Assembly (NCBI GenBank): GCA_017651345.1
Contig: JAGCDD010000171.1
Span: 1-57,485, forward strand
From: Bacteroidales bacterium
GTDB taxonomy: Bacteria > Bacteroidota > Bacteroidia > Bacteroidales > UBA3824
Direction of reading: 5' to 3'
Length of the DNA stretch: 57,485 nt
In this document: in pieces, positions 8,742 through 12,048 of the stretch
How the letters are laid out: every line of letters begins with the position of its first letter
Position numbering within the stretch: position 1 is the stretch's first letter
Position numbers and translations under genes: made by a program
Notes under the pieces: generated by a model
Told to the model about the DNA's origin: nothing
Database searches by the model: none
Seen by the model: only the letters and a program-made list of their open reading frames with translations

Positions 8742-8790
8742 AAATCCGCCGGATTTGTTGGTTAAGACGTCTCTGGTGGATTTGGTTTTT
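8742..8790 (+). terminator. Hairpin terminator after the STAND NTPase
   Basis: AAATCC-GCC-GGATTT (8742-8756) is a compact hairpin. AAATCCGCC (8742-8750) can instead pair with GGTGGATTT (8775-8783), followed by a T-rich stretch. It separates the NTPase from the convergent toxin gene. Confidence 0.55.
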
Positions 8791-9100
8791 ATTTTATGCG
8801 TTTTTGTAATTTTTCGGGATTTTGGCGAAGATTCCAAAAGTCGATTACTTTAATAATGTCATTTTCAATGTAATATATTATTTTATTGTACCGTTTAACA
8901 ATCACACTTCGATAATCTATTTTTCTGCCATCTAATAATGGTTCTTTATGACCTAAATATGGATGTTGACATAAATAAACGTTATATTCATTAACTTCAT
9001 CGTATAATTCTAATTCTGTGGTACGGCCAAATTGGTCCCTAACGTATTCTGCTGTCTTTATAAAGGCTTTGATTGCTTGACTTAACCAAATTATTTTCAT
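8789..9100 (-). CDS. RelE/ParE-type toxin
   Basis: This 103-residue basic protein has the RelE/ParE layout: MKIIW beta strand, a long helical hairpin (QAIKAFIKTAEYVRDQFG), a strand with DYRSVIV and KRYNKIIYYIEND, then IKVIDFWNLRQNPEK. The family inhibits growth, either by cutting ribosome-bound mRNA (RelE) or by poisoning gyrase (ParE). The central RSVIVKRYNKIIYYIE strands suggest ParE-like, but the target cannot be deduced. The start codon overlaps the antitoxin stop as ATGA (9097-9100), which indicates translational coupling. No second toxin-like domain is present. Confidence 0.85.
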   Translation of the reverse strand: MKIIWLSQAIKAFIKTAEYVRDQFGRTTELELYDEVNEYNVYLCQHPYLGHKEPLLDGRKIDYRSVIVKRYNKIIYYIENDIIKVIDFWNLRQNPEKLQKRIK

Positions 9101-9363
9101 ACTGCTTGACGTTGAGGTTCGTTTTTGATTCCTAATTCTTGGGCAATATGTTTGAAAGCTTCGTCAGCTGGTAGGTATTCTCCGTTTTTGAATTCTCTTT
9201 CAGCCTCTTCAAGTCTTGCATCAAGCTCCTCTTTAGTATAGGGGCAATATGATTCTAACCCTTTTTCTGTGTCGTCTAATTCGTCTATCAACCACATGCG
9301 GTCTTCGTAAGATAACGAGCCCAAAAGGTAGTCGCGTAAGTTTATAAGTGTCTCTTTGCTCAT
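9097..9363 (-). CDS. Antitoxin of the RelE/ParE-type pair
   Basis: This acidic 88-residue protein precedes and overlaps the toxin gene by four bases. Residues 1-25 form a short helix-rich region (LRDYLLGSLSYEDRMWLIDEL) that may mediate dimerisation or DNA binding. The C-terminal half, with EELDARLEEAEREF, resembles the toxin-wrapping tail of such antitoxins. The family normally neutralises its toxin and represses the operon from the upstream promoter. Its first 21 residues share 12 identities, without gaps, with the 48-codon gene at 55930-56076. Confidence 0.85.
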   Translation of the reverse strand: MSKETLINLRDYLLGSLSYEDRMWLIDELDDTEKGLESYCPYTKEELDARLEEAEREFKNGEYLPADEAFKHIAQELGIKNEPQRQAV

Positions 9364-9417: not shown

Positions 9418-9630
9418 ATTATTTCTCCTCTTTTTTATTATGTAAGCAAGTTTAATGGTTATAATGCTGATTATCAGAGGATGTTTATTTTTTTTAAAAA
9501 AAATACCGTTTTTTGTCGGTCTTTTTTCAAAATTATCCGTAAATTGCAATTGAATTACTTTAAAATAGTTTTTACGAAACAGAAATAATATTTATAAATA
9601 AATAAAAGTTAAATCTAACGCCTGATTCTA

Positions 9631-9759
9631 ACGAATCAAAAATCTGCAAAATTTTAGAAGTACAGATCAGGTGCGAAAGGTTCACGCTAACATTATGTAT
9701 TGGCGTGAACTGTATCGTGCTTAATGTACTTCGAGGTTTTTGCAGATACCCTGATTCGT
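9631..9759 (+). ncRNA. Long hairpin element upstream of the BspA-type gene
   Basis: The 465-bp gap at 9364-9828 holds no gene but contains this structure. Four blocks are perfect complements: ACGAATCA (9631-9638) with 9752-9759, ATCTGCAAAA (9642-9651) with 9738-9747, GAAGTACA (9657-9664) with 9725-9732, and GTTCACGC (9680-9687) with 9703-9710, around a 15-base loop. In plus-strand RNA, GTGCGA (9671-9676) also pairs with TCGTGC (9715-9720) using two G-U pairs, and the 5/5 internal loop gains two G-U and one A-U pair. These wobble pairs favour an RNA on the plus strand over a DNA-level repeat. A mobile-element remnant remains possible. Confidence 0.5.
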
Positions 9760-9776
9760 AATTGAGCACAAAAGAT

Positions 9777-9796
9777 ACGGTTCGCGCCGTTTTTTG
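9777..9796 (+). terminator. Weak hairpin with T run before the BspA-type gene
   Basis: ACGG (9777-9780) pairs with CCGT (9787-9790) around a six-base loop, followed by six T. It lies between the long hairpin and the start codon at 9829. It could end the upstream RNA or act as an attenuator; the short stem makes it weak. Confidence 0.35.
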
Positions 9797-9828
9797 TTGT
9801 TGAAGAGGGTGTTGTAAAACAACATGTT

Positions 9829-12048
9829 ATGGATACAGTAAAATTAATTGACAAAAACAGGATTTCCTTCACGGAAATGTGCAGAAAGATTGTTGTGATG
9901 TTGGTAGTTCTTTTTATTCTTTCTGCGATTGGTAAAAAAAATGCAGACGCACAAGAGGCTTATGCAGAATTTAATGGTGGAACATTGGTATTCTTTTATG
10001 ATTATCATAAATCATCTTTGTCTTATGATCTTAACTCAGGAAATGATATACCTAGTTGGAATGTTATTGCAGACCGTATTACAAAAGTCGTGTTTGATGA
10101 TTCTTTCAAAGATTATAAACCTTTGAGTTGCGCTTCGTGGTTTTATGGTTGTTACAATCTTAACGAAATAAGTTGTTTAAGAGAGAACCTTAATACCTCA
10201 GATGTGACAAATATGTGTTATATGTTTGCGCAATGTAATCAATTGGAAAACTTAGATTTAAGTGGTTTTAATACAGCAAATGTTATTAATATGGATTGTA
10301 TGTTTTGGGGATGTAGTAAACTTGCAAGACTTGATGTGAGCAGTTTCGACACCAAGAATGTGACTTCAATGTGCATGATGTTTGATAATTGCCTTGGTCT
10401 TAGCCAATTAGATTTGAGCCATTTTGATACAGCTAATGTACTTGAAATGGGACATATGTTCTATTTGTGCGGAGTATCTATGCTGGATATTAGTAGTTTT
10501 GATACCAATAATGTTACTAATATGTTCGAAATGTTCGCGGAATGTGATAGTTTGAGAACCATTTATGTTGGAGACAAATGGAATACTGCCAATGTTATAT
10601 ACTCTGAAAATATGTTTTATGGTTGTCTTAGCCTATTTGGCGGCCATGGTTCAACTGTTTATGATTATGAGTTGACCGATAAAACATTCGCTCGTATGGA
10701 TGGTGGAGAACAATCTCCTGGCTATTTTACGAAATTAGGGCAACAACCATATGATCCCGAGGCATACGCTTATGCAATTTTTGACAACGGCATTCTGACT
10801 TTTTATTATAAGAAAGTTATACCCGAACATGGCGCATATTCTTGGGCTAATTTTGTAACTAATCATTTCCAAAATTATGTTGATGATTATTATTCATACT
10901 ATGATTTCCGTTCGTCTGTAAAAAAGGTTATTTTCGATAATTCATTTAAAAAGTTTCATCCAAAAAGTTTAAAGGGTTTATTTTGTGGGTTTTGTTATAT
11001 GACCGAAATAGAAGGTTTACGAGAAAATCTTAATACAGAGAACGCAACAAATTTGTCTGGAATGTTTGCTCATTGCGATAATTTGGTAAATCTTGATTTG
11101 AGTGGTTTTGATACAAAGAATGTAATGAATCTTGATTCTATGTTTTTGTCTTGTTGTAGTCTTACAAATCTTGATTTGAGTATATTTGATACCAAAAATG
11201 TTACTAATATGAGCCGAATGTTCGATTACTGTTATAACCTAACTAATATTGATTTAAGTAATTTAAAAACAGAAAACGTTTCTGATATGAGTCGTATGTT
11301 TGCAGATTGTAAAAATCTTATAAGTCTTAATTTGAGCAGTTTTAATACCAAAAATGTAATTGATATGCATGAAATGTTCAGTTTCTGTTTAACATTAACA
11401 ACGATTTCTGTAAGTGATAATTGGACTACTGAAAAGTGTTCAAATTCATCAGATATGTTTGATATGTGTTCTTCTCTAAGAGGTGGTAAAGGTACTTTTC
11501 ATAGTTTTTCTAATGTAGACAAATCTTTTGCTCATATTGATGGTGGGTTTGATAATCCTGGTTATTTGACAAAAAATATTATTTCTTTTATTGTTTCAAA
11601 ACCTCCTAATAAAACTGAATATATAGTAGGAGAGTCTATTGAATCTATTGGTGGAGAATTGTTAATAACCTATTACGACAATAGTACAGAATTTGTATCG
11701 TTAGAAAATGCTATTCTCTCGGATTATCAGTGTAATACCATTGGAGAACAAATTATCAAGGTATCGTATATGAATTTGGAAACCACCTTTACCGTCACAG
11801 TTAATCCATCAAACAATCTCAATACGCCAATTTCACCAGTTTCTAATAATATCGAAACAAATGTTTGGGCATCACATCACACTATATATATTAATGCTCC
11901 TACCGACACCAAATACAAAATCATCGACACGAACGGTCGAATCATCACAACTTCAACAACAAAATCTACCCACAACGAAATCATAATCAACACATCAGGC
12001 TTATTGCTTGTAATTATAAACGGTACTACCTATAAGGTAATTATTTAA
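9829..12048 (+). CDS. BspA-type (DUF285) repeat surface protein with Ig-like and sorting domains
   Basis: This is probably an exported surface protein. The hydrophobic stretch at about residues 20-38, ending NADAQ, looks like a signal peptide. Two arrays of DUF285/BspA-type leucine-rich repeats follow (about 90-270 and 390-560), with units like LDLSxFDTxNVTNMxxMFxxC. Each array ends with a similar cap containing DGG and PGYxTK, so the protein looks internally duplicated. Residues about 583-665 resemble a bacterial Ig-like domain (YIVGESIESIGGELLITY). The last 65 residues (YKIIDTNGRIITTSTTK, then a final strand) resemble a type IX secretion C-terminal sorting domain. DUF285 proteins are linked with adhesion. 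No clear promoter was seen near the start. Confidence 0.82.
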   Translation: MDTVKLIDKNRISFTEMCRKIVVMLVVLFILSAIGKKNADAQEAYAEFNGGTLVFFYDYHKSSLSYDLNSGNDIPSWNVIADRITKVVFDDSFKDYKPLSCASWFYGCYNLNEISCLRENLNTSDVTNMCYMFAQCNQLENLDLSGFNTANVINMDCMFWGCSKLARLDVSSFDTKNVTSMCMMFDNCLGLSQLDLSHFDTANVLEMGHMFYLCGVSMLDISSFDTNNVTNMFEMFAECDSLRTIYVGDKWNTANVIYSENMFYGCLSLFGGHGSTVYDYELTDKTFARMDGGEQSPGYFTKLGQQPYDPEAYAYAIFDNGILTFYYKKVIPEHGAYSWANFVTNHFQNYVDDYYSYYDFRSSVKKVIFDNSFKKFHPKSLKGLFCGFCYMTEIEGLRENLNTENATNLSGMFAHCDNLVNLDLSGFDTKNVMNLDSMFLSCCSLTNLDLSIFDTKNVTNMSRMFDYCYNLTNIDLSNLKTENVSDMSRMFADCKNLISLNLSSFNTKNVIDMHEMFSFCLTLTTISVSDNWTTEKCSNSSDMFDMCSSLRGGKGTFHSFSNVDKSFAHIDGGFDNPGYLTKNIISFIVSKPPNKTEYIVGESIESIGGELLITYYDNSTEFVSLENAILSDYQCNTIGEQIIKVSYMNLETTFTVTVNPSNNLNTPISPVSNNIETNVWASHHTIYINAPTDTKYKIIDTNGRIITTSTTKSTHNEIIINTSGLLLVIINGTTYKVII

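Follow-up and report, generated by a model that had tools for sequence, protein, structure and literature searches.

A Bacteroidota family of structured 5' leader RNAs with features of a transcription attenuator and apparently exchangeable hairpin arms

The window analysed here is the whole of a 57,485-nucleotide stretch from a Bacteroidales bacterium (GenBank assembly GCA_017651345.1, contig JAGCDD010000171.1, positions 1 to 57,485, forward strand). It carries a long hairpin at 9631-9759, followed on the same strand by a gene for a BspA-type repeat protein (Table 1). The hairpin is real, and its perfectly paired blocks lie where a first-pass annotation, made from the letters alone, had placed them: 9631-9638/9752-9759, 9642-9651/9738-9747, 9657-9664/9725-9732 and, at the apex, 9680-9687/9702-9709. 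The block GTGCGA, paired with the help of G-U, is likewise present at 9671-9676. The leader from 9600 to 9830 (231 nt) folds at -81 kcal/mol (z = -7.05), and none of 200 dinucleotide shuffles was equally stable. Reading the 129-nt hairpin on the minus strand likewise gives an extreme value (z = -7.46), as would be the case for any near-perfect palindrome. The unit is larger than the hairpin itself and extends over about 9616-9814. Covariance-model searches covering the window found one copy, and Rfam 15 at the gathering threshold returned three tRNAs and nothing else from the whole window. By eye, a weakly conserved sequence resembling GGTTAGCAAAA / GGCTCGCAAAG precedes the start codon in many copies in the genus; in the window, for example, it lies at 9803-9828, between the putative terminator and the start codon, and overlaps the 3' strand of P1. 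Divergent from the leader, on the minus strand at 8789-9363, are two small overlapping open reading frames (ORFs) of 103 and 88 aa without Pfam matches, whose arrangement looks like that of a toxin-antitoxin pair.

Table 1. Parts of the leader and the gene behind it (positions in the window).
Feature	Position	Strand	Basis
P1, outer closing helix, 5' strand TAACGCCT	9616..9623	+	minimum-free-energy pairing with 9807-9814
s0, partner of the 5' part of s1 in the terminator conformer	9618..9629	+	own duplex beats swapped mean in 117/133
X, outer variable arm, 5' strand, partner 9752-9759	9631..9638	+	fold; arm swap test
A box	9639..9655	+	9642-9651 with 9738-9747 in the long hairpin; alternatively mini-hairpin AAAAT/ATTTT
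Y, inner variable arm, 5' strand, partner 9725-9732	9657..9664	+	fold; arm swap test
s1, antiterminator strand, partner s2	9665..9687	+	fold; own s1:s2 better in 117/133
Apical loop region, variable	9688..9701	+	alignment
s2, common strand, with s1 (long hairpin) or s3 (terminator)	9702..9725	+	swap and position tests
A' box, mini-hairpin GGT...ACC, loop complementary to A loop	9735..9750	+	covarying closing pairs
X', outer variable arm, 3' strand	9752..9759	+	fold
s3, terminator 3' strand, complement of s2	9761..9788	+	s2:s3 duplex -27.7 kcal/mol here
T-run of proposed intrinsic terminator	9790..9795	+	T-rich octamer behind s2 complement in 132/133
P1, 3' strand	9807..9814	+	minimum-free-energy pairing with 9616-9623
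Downstream gene, DUF285/BspA-type repeat protein with Big_3 domain, 739 aa	9829..12048	+	

The first-pass annotation had suggested a search for further copies in the same genome. Such copies exist; the ones observed have diverged and precede other genes. One of them, a BLAST match at 80% identity, stands before not a DUF285 gene but one for a protein with Sel1-like repeats and, by eye, a signal-like start; across the genus, BLAST matches occur in 11 of 18 genomes (E <= 0.01). A covariance model built from 16 copies (R1) finds the element in all 18 (E <= 0.001), with 14 matches in the window's own genome, of which one is the reverse strand of another, leaving 13 places. In a sample of the order, R1 matched 51 of 247 genomes and 42 of 173 genera (E <= 1e-6). 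A broader model built from 63 copies (R2) matched 78 of 395 genomes and 50 of 197 genera in a sample of the class, and 45 of 395 genomes and 21 of 171 genera in a sample of the phylum (both E <= 1e-7); these three sets of counts are lower bounds, because large searches use stricter filters. Most of the genomes are metagenome bins, and those matched by R2 include some listed with one contig. One exact pattern retrieved 67 stretches from records nearly all named as Bacteroidales bins, including Salinivirgaceae, Paludibacteraceae, Symbiothrix, Tannerella and Dysgonamonadaceae; two come from KHT7, with no "MAG" in the record title. An exact match outside bins so named, in Candidatus Kutchimonas denitrificans (L199, JAACAK010000062), has no R1 match at E 1e-5 and is either chance or contamination. 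Single queries found no viral contig with one exact pattern and no plasmid or phage record matching one 221-base sequence. At 21 leader loci (5 + 16), Rfam 15 gave no convincing match at E up to 1, the weak hits below gathering threshold being to miRNA, CRISPR repeat and snoRNA families. This is a large Bacteroidota family of RNA leaders without a match in Rfam 15.

For the comparative tests, alignment A4 (88 rows, with five reverse-strand matches to the same hairpins left out) and 94 rows of alignment A5 were pooled to 177 copies. Removal of identical copies and of those with less than 45 nt upstream or less than 110 nt downstream left 144, near-duplicate removal left 135, and 133 of these have a T-run. 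The comparison of arms used other filters and kept 149 copies. The copies are related, and the swap and Fisher tests treat them as independent, so that their values are indicative.

The long hairpin covaries strongly. In A5, reduced to its 90 distinct rows, pairing extends to 95.5% of cells, a percentage that leans upwards because R1 was fitted to that alignment, and 26 of 31 pairs are changed on both sides, including all seven pairs of helix 1; the first MAFFT alignment already had both-side changes in 19 of 36 predicted pairs. Homologues thus carry the compensatory changes on which the first-pass annotation had staked its RNA reading. The covariation score in A5 is 0.594, versus 0.191 with shuffled partners and 0.06-0.11 with slid partners. 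Moreover, the duplex between the two arms averages -28.7 kcal/mol for a leader's own arms versus -10.5 for swapped ones, the own pairing being better in all 133 copies. G-U cells outnumber A-C cells in the model's pairs by 265 to 18 in A4 and 305 to 18 in A5. Such an excess separates the strands, because on the opposite strand the same cells would show A-C mismatches. The G-U asymmetry noted at first pass in the single hairpin therefore extends to the family, and the element very probably acts as an RNA of the sense strand, in the direction of the downstream gene.

A reading at the DNA level, in which the hairpin is a folded recombination site or a mobile hairpin of the attC or REP/MITE kind, would account for an element that is multicopy, palindromic and close to accessory and defence genes, and would make transposition of the movement of arms between sites described below. 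We consider it very unlikely. A DNA duplex repeat leaves the surplus of G-U over A-C unexplained, orientation and distance to the gene are fixed, and conservation extends beyond the hairpin to the terminator strand. The copies are diverged as well: identical copies, which the first-pass annotation had named (with flanking target duplications) as the mark of a mobile element, and near-identical ones, which a MITE or REP repeat calls for, are not what was found, the median arm identity over pairs of the 149 copies being 0.56. An integron was also rejected. None of the 18 genus genomes has a match to the integron integrase model TIGR02249 over its curated cut-off, and sub-threshold recombinase matches occur in all 18 and equally in 14 of 14 control genomes.

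Behind the hairpin, at a median of 22 nt, 133 of 135 non-redundant copies have a T-run (two do not), and the T-run is preceded by a segment, s3, that nearly repeats s1. Both s1 and s3 can therefore claim s2, as s3 is its complement. The s2:s3 duplex averages -24.0 kcal/mol within a leader, -18.3 with s3 swapped between leaders and -8.5 with a control segment (n=133). A leader's own s3 is better than swapped ones in 129 of 133 and fails to be so in four; in the control, which pairs s2 with the segment after the T-run, the figure is 67 of 133. In a test in which the T-run played no part, s3 was taken to be whichever segment within 90 nt best complements s2; it was directly followed by an octamer containing five or more T in 132 of 133 leaders, versus 16% for random octamers of the same regions. 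A wider set of distant copies repeats the pattern, with a T-run in 52 of 53 and the own s2:s3 pairing better in 44 of 52 (not better in eight). The two other pairings of a four-strand arrangement hold up similarly: own s1:s2 is better than swapped in 117 of 133, and so is own s0:s1, versus 79 of 133 for s0 against the segment after the T-run. The outer helix P1 is better with its own strand in 91 of 133, versus 60 of 133 in each of two controls, and as a family feature it is moderately supported by this comparison. No support was found for a general outer helix between s0 and the bases directly behind the hairpin (own better in 54 of 133).

This anatomy agrees with the first-pass view that the RNA can pair in alternative ways and includes an attenuator, and changes two parts of that view. 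The pairing of GATTC with GAATC that had been put forward as the competitor exists, and the main competing pair appears instead to be s0:s1 (9618-9629 with 9665-9675). Similarly, the local T-run hairpin at 9777-9796 can form, and its place as putative terminator goes to s2:s3 (9702-9725 with 9761-9788) before the T-run at 9790-9795.

The second fold leaves its own trace in the A and A' boxes, each of which can close a mini-hairpin. The closing pairs of the A' mini-stem read GGT/ACC in 59 copies, GGC/GCC in 39 and GGT/GCC in 37, and the non-pairing GGC/ACC occurs once (136 of 149 copies); the pattern is absent from the other 13, four of which read GGG...CCC. The closing bases of the A mini-stem are A-T in 56, G-C in 20, G-T in 16 and A-C in one of the 93 copies (of 149) that were matched. 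Fisher tests give 1e-11 for A' and 1e-9 for A, with copies taken as independent. Within the long hairpin, RCC leaves its first base unpaired in 118 of 124 copies. For GGY, the third base is unpaired in 76 and pairs with the other arm in 48 of the 124, so that the first fold still involves the GGY side of the mini-stem. Folding each arm by itself gave no excess stability (mean z of +0.29 and -0.38 versus shuffles), and the case for the second fold therefore rests on the covariation of the closing bases.

Computed energies favour the first fold. At the minimum, the partner of s2 is s1 in 126 of 133 leaders, s3 in five and another in two, and the s2:s3 fold lies a median of 12.7 kcal/mol above the minimum (nested-only energies). 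The terminator would thus rarely win unaided, and a kinetic or bound-factor contribution would be needed; this energetic cost is the weakest link of the switch model. Ribosome-mediated attenuation through a leader peptide was rejected, since 50 of 135 leaders have an ATG ORF of at least six codons, fewer than the fraction of 0.67 expected from shuffles. The parts that define an intrinsic-terminator attenuator, namely a helix with its U-tract, an exclusive antiterminator and a position 5' of a gene on the same strand, are all supported by the tests on the copies.

The complementarity of the strands, the covariation of both folds, the position of the T-run, the sense strand and the 5' position can be read directly from the copies; from these we infer termination, its regulation and the nature of whatever regulates it. 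Our preferred reading, to which we give roughly two chances in three, is that the element is a cis-acting 5' leader RNA in which two exclusive folds control transcriptional read-through. In the ON fold, X:X', A:A', Y:Y' and s1:s2 would join into one long hairpin; s2 would be held by s1, no terminator would form, and RNA polymerase would continue into the gene. In the OFF fold, s0 would pair with s1, with A as a mini-hairpin between them, and s2 would pair with s3, with A' as a mini-hairpin, bringing a helix against the U-tract and causing termination. If A were kept from A', s0 could take s1 and the 3' part of s2 would be left free as a toehold for s3, and the choice between folds may depend on kissing of the A and A' loops, which are complementary. 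Since computed energies favour the long hairpin, the leader probably allows read-through by default, and the gene would be shut by a factor or kinetic condition preventing A from pairing with A'.

Leaders that modify or bind the polymerase offer another way to place a hairpin before accessory genes. HK022 put and EAR are processive antiterminators or RNA-polymerase-binding leaders, and if the hairpin were of this type it would act on the polymerase, with s3 and the T-run being one terminator among those to be overcome. The length and conservation of the hairpin, its place 5' of accessory genes and the terminator-like T-run directly behind it would all suit such a role. We regard it as quite unlikely, since switching between folds is what the covariation of the mini-stems and the rivalry of s1 and s3 over s2 indicate.

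The relation of the element to the gene behind it bears on a further alternative, namely an independent sRNA with its own promoter, long hairpin and terminator, acting in trans, the gene being only a neighbour. The T-run would end an RNA of about 175 nt, as such an sRNA would have, and the distance to the gene is loose in distant copies: a dozen of the 53 in the wider set have no start codon within 300 nt, and about 250 nt separate the leader from a TonB-plug receptor gene at L232, L229 and similar loci outside the order. By eye, a promoter-like TTTGCG...TTGAAGC block stands before leaders of the L232 and L229 type. In the genus and order, in contrast, the distance is nearly fixed. Among 119 copies with 500 nt on both sides, 117 have a chosen sense start, and it falls 60-100 nt behind the hairpin in 86 of them, versus 7 of 68 in a mirror search of the other strand. 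Moreover, DNA methylase domains recur among the downstream proteins, and competition of s1 and s3 for s2 would have no role in a plain sRNA. We thus judge the sRNA explanation unlikely.

For the survey of gene families, ORFs below 65 aa were left out of the 133 downstream ORFs, giving 120, and three more were dropped (L100 for length, L169 and L135 as doubtful), so that 117 proteins were scanned. Pfam assigned DNA methylase domains to nine (PF01555) and eight (PF02384), HSDR_N_2 to five and Sel1 to six; four are dynamins, and 8xMP, caspase-like and DUF285 matches number three each. PADLOC models for type III (and type II) methyltransferases matched nine and those for type I matched eight. On the upstream side no methylase appears in the 25 families listed of 175 from 117 proteins, the commonest being AAA_14 (seven), DUF4143 (six) and HATPase_c_4 (six), with YhcG_C (four) and PADLOC PDC-S01 (five) also present. 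Families thus recur upstream too, and the neighbourhoods are accessory on both sides. In the wider set, ten scanned proteins included two N6/N4 DNA methylases and two TonB-plug receptors.

Small helix-turn-helix (HTH) proteins form another recurrent group. A pattern picked 42 of the 133 downstream ORFs, of which one was wrong by eye, leaving 41; Pfam HTH matches among the 117 proteins were HTH_3 (three), HTH_26 (two) and HTH_7 (two). Proteins of the HTH-like group are mostly 68-90 aa, carry a motif like HIGxxIxxELxRQxRSxxWLA (by eye) and come first behind many leaders, as at L017:1661-1864, L016:1128-1364, L112:2737-2973 and L103:3271-3501. Four that were examined matched no NCBIfam model. At several sites these proteins stay alike where the arms of the leader change. 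Leaders L099, L072, L088, L116, L082 and L094 stand before genes for dynamin-like GTPases and 8xMP-like membrane proteins and seem to form a sub-branch in which the apical loop is longer (members assigned by eye), possibly part of an anti-phage module. The downstream genes are thus diverse, including DNA methyltransferases, small HTH proteins, dynamins and secreted proteins, and they share no pathway that names a ligand. DUF285 is one family of many, and the tie to BspA-type genes drawn at first pass, with the notion of a BspA-specific element, is given up.

The arms X and Y vary between copies and behave, on sequence comparison, as modules swapped between leaders of unrelated genes. Taking upstream identity of at least 0.85 together with downstream identity of at least 0.75 as the mark of the same site, we found 17 same-site pairs among 10,731 pairs of the 149 copies. 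Arm identity in these is at least 0.95 in nine (several of which come from one site cluster and are not independent), 0.78-0.82 in two and 0.50-0.62 in six, the last being at the median level of any two copies. The six low pairs represent five sites: L016/L078, L033/L104 (where L033 and L034 are one site, compared with L104), L108/L119, L048/L079 and L208/L187. At these sites the flanks are 0.83-1.00 identical, the DNA matches to about the end of s0, the interior of the hairpin differs, and the match resumes at about the end of X' or within s3; BLAST alignments run through the element at 80-97% identity over 0.9-7.4 kb. Conversely, 21 of 10,511 different-site pairs have arms at least 0.85 alike. 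Eleven of these stand before proteins without BLAST similarity and three before distant HTH relatives (34-43% identity), and in the remaining seven the downstream proteins were not comparable. In one example the arms are shared by L077, whose protein starts like type III methyltransferases, and L092, before a 260-aa protein.

Palindromes provoke recombination, and such exchange would most simply occur by homologous recombination in the conserved boxes, taking both arms together; selection would remove exchanges that break the pairing of the arms. Homogenisation within genomes is not favoured as the source of shared arms, since arms at least 0.80 alike are shared by 2 of the 230 different-site pairs from a single genome and 7 of the 2661 that span two genomes of the genus, small numbers in both cases. 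Assembly chimeras may contribute, given the predominance of metagenome bins; against this, the copies in aligned arm-sharing pairs come from different records and differ at bases within their common arms. It is tempting to see in X, A and Y an address read by a trans factor (a protein, a small RNA or an infection signal), with arm swaps rewiring defence, methylation and surface genes across the phylum, much as recognition domains are swapped in restriction systems, and we offer this as a speculation that is rather unlikely to hold.

To our knowledge, little is known of how Bacteroidota control costly accessory genes, and the exchange of paired stem segments between leaders is an uncommon way for a regulatory RNA to evolve. 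A switch before methyltransferase, restriction, dynamin and surface-protein genes would provide a handle on the control of costly or dangerous accessory genes in this phylum, and the exchange of arms raises the question of whether they hold specificity or structure only.

The strand topology is that of the trp/pheA-type four-strand attenuators, in which 0:1 and 2:3 pairing (terminator, with U-tract) alternates with 1:2 pairing (antiterminator), and here covariation backs both folds. Unlike those leaders, the present family has no sign of a leader peptide, is much longer, is not linked to one pathway, and has two mini-hairpins whose loops are complementary, besides outer arms that vary. No earlier description of the family was found in the literature searched, mostly at abstract level. 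The structured RNAs Flavo-1, 6S-Flavo and Bacteroidales-1 of the same phylum (PMC2864571) gave no match in the Rfam 15 scans of the window and the 21 loci; the GUCCY-hairpin appears in the same source without an Rfam number. HMP2_4205 (Fremin and Bhatt 2021, PMC8040213) is described as 132 bp, palindromic, mostly from Bacteroidetes, near TPR genes and with a predicted terminator, and by this description alone it may be a fragment of the leader family. The passages on it describe no switch, second fold or arm exchange, and the main text lacks the words methyltransferase and restriction, whereas the leader family has such genes downstream. FopS of Bacteroides thetaiotaomicron (PMC11697453), as summarised there, comprises paralogous sRNAs with a single-stranded 5' stretch and a terminator hairpin that act in trans on SusC mRNAs. 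The leader family resembles it in being a multicopy Bacteroidota RNA that ends in a putative intrinsic terminator. It falls outside FopS as so described, for its 5' part is a hairpin of about 130 nt and not a single-stranded seed stretch, and the action we propose for it is in cis.
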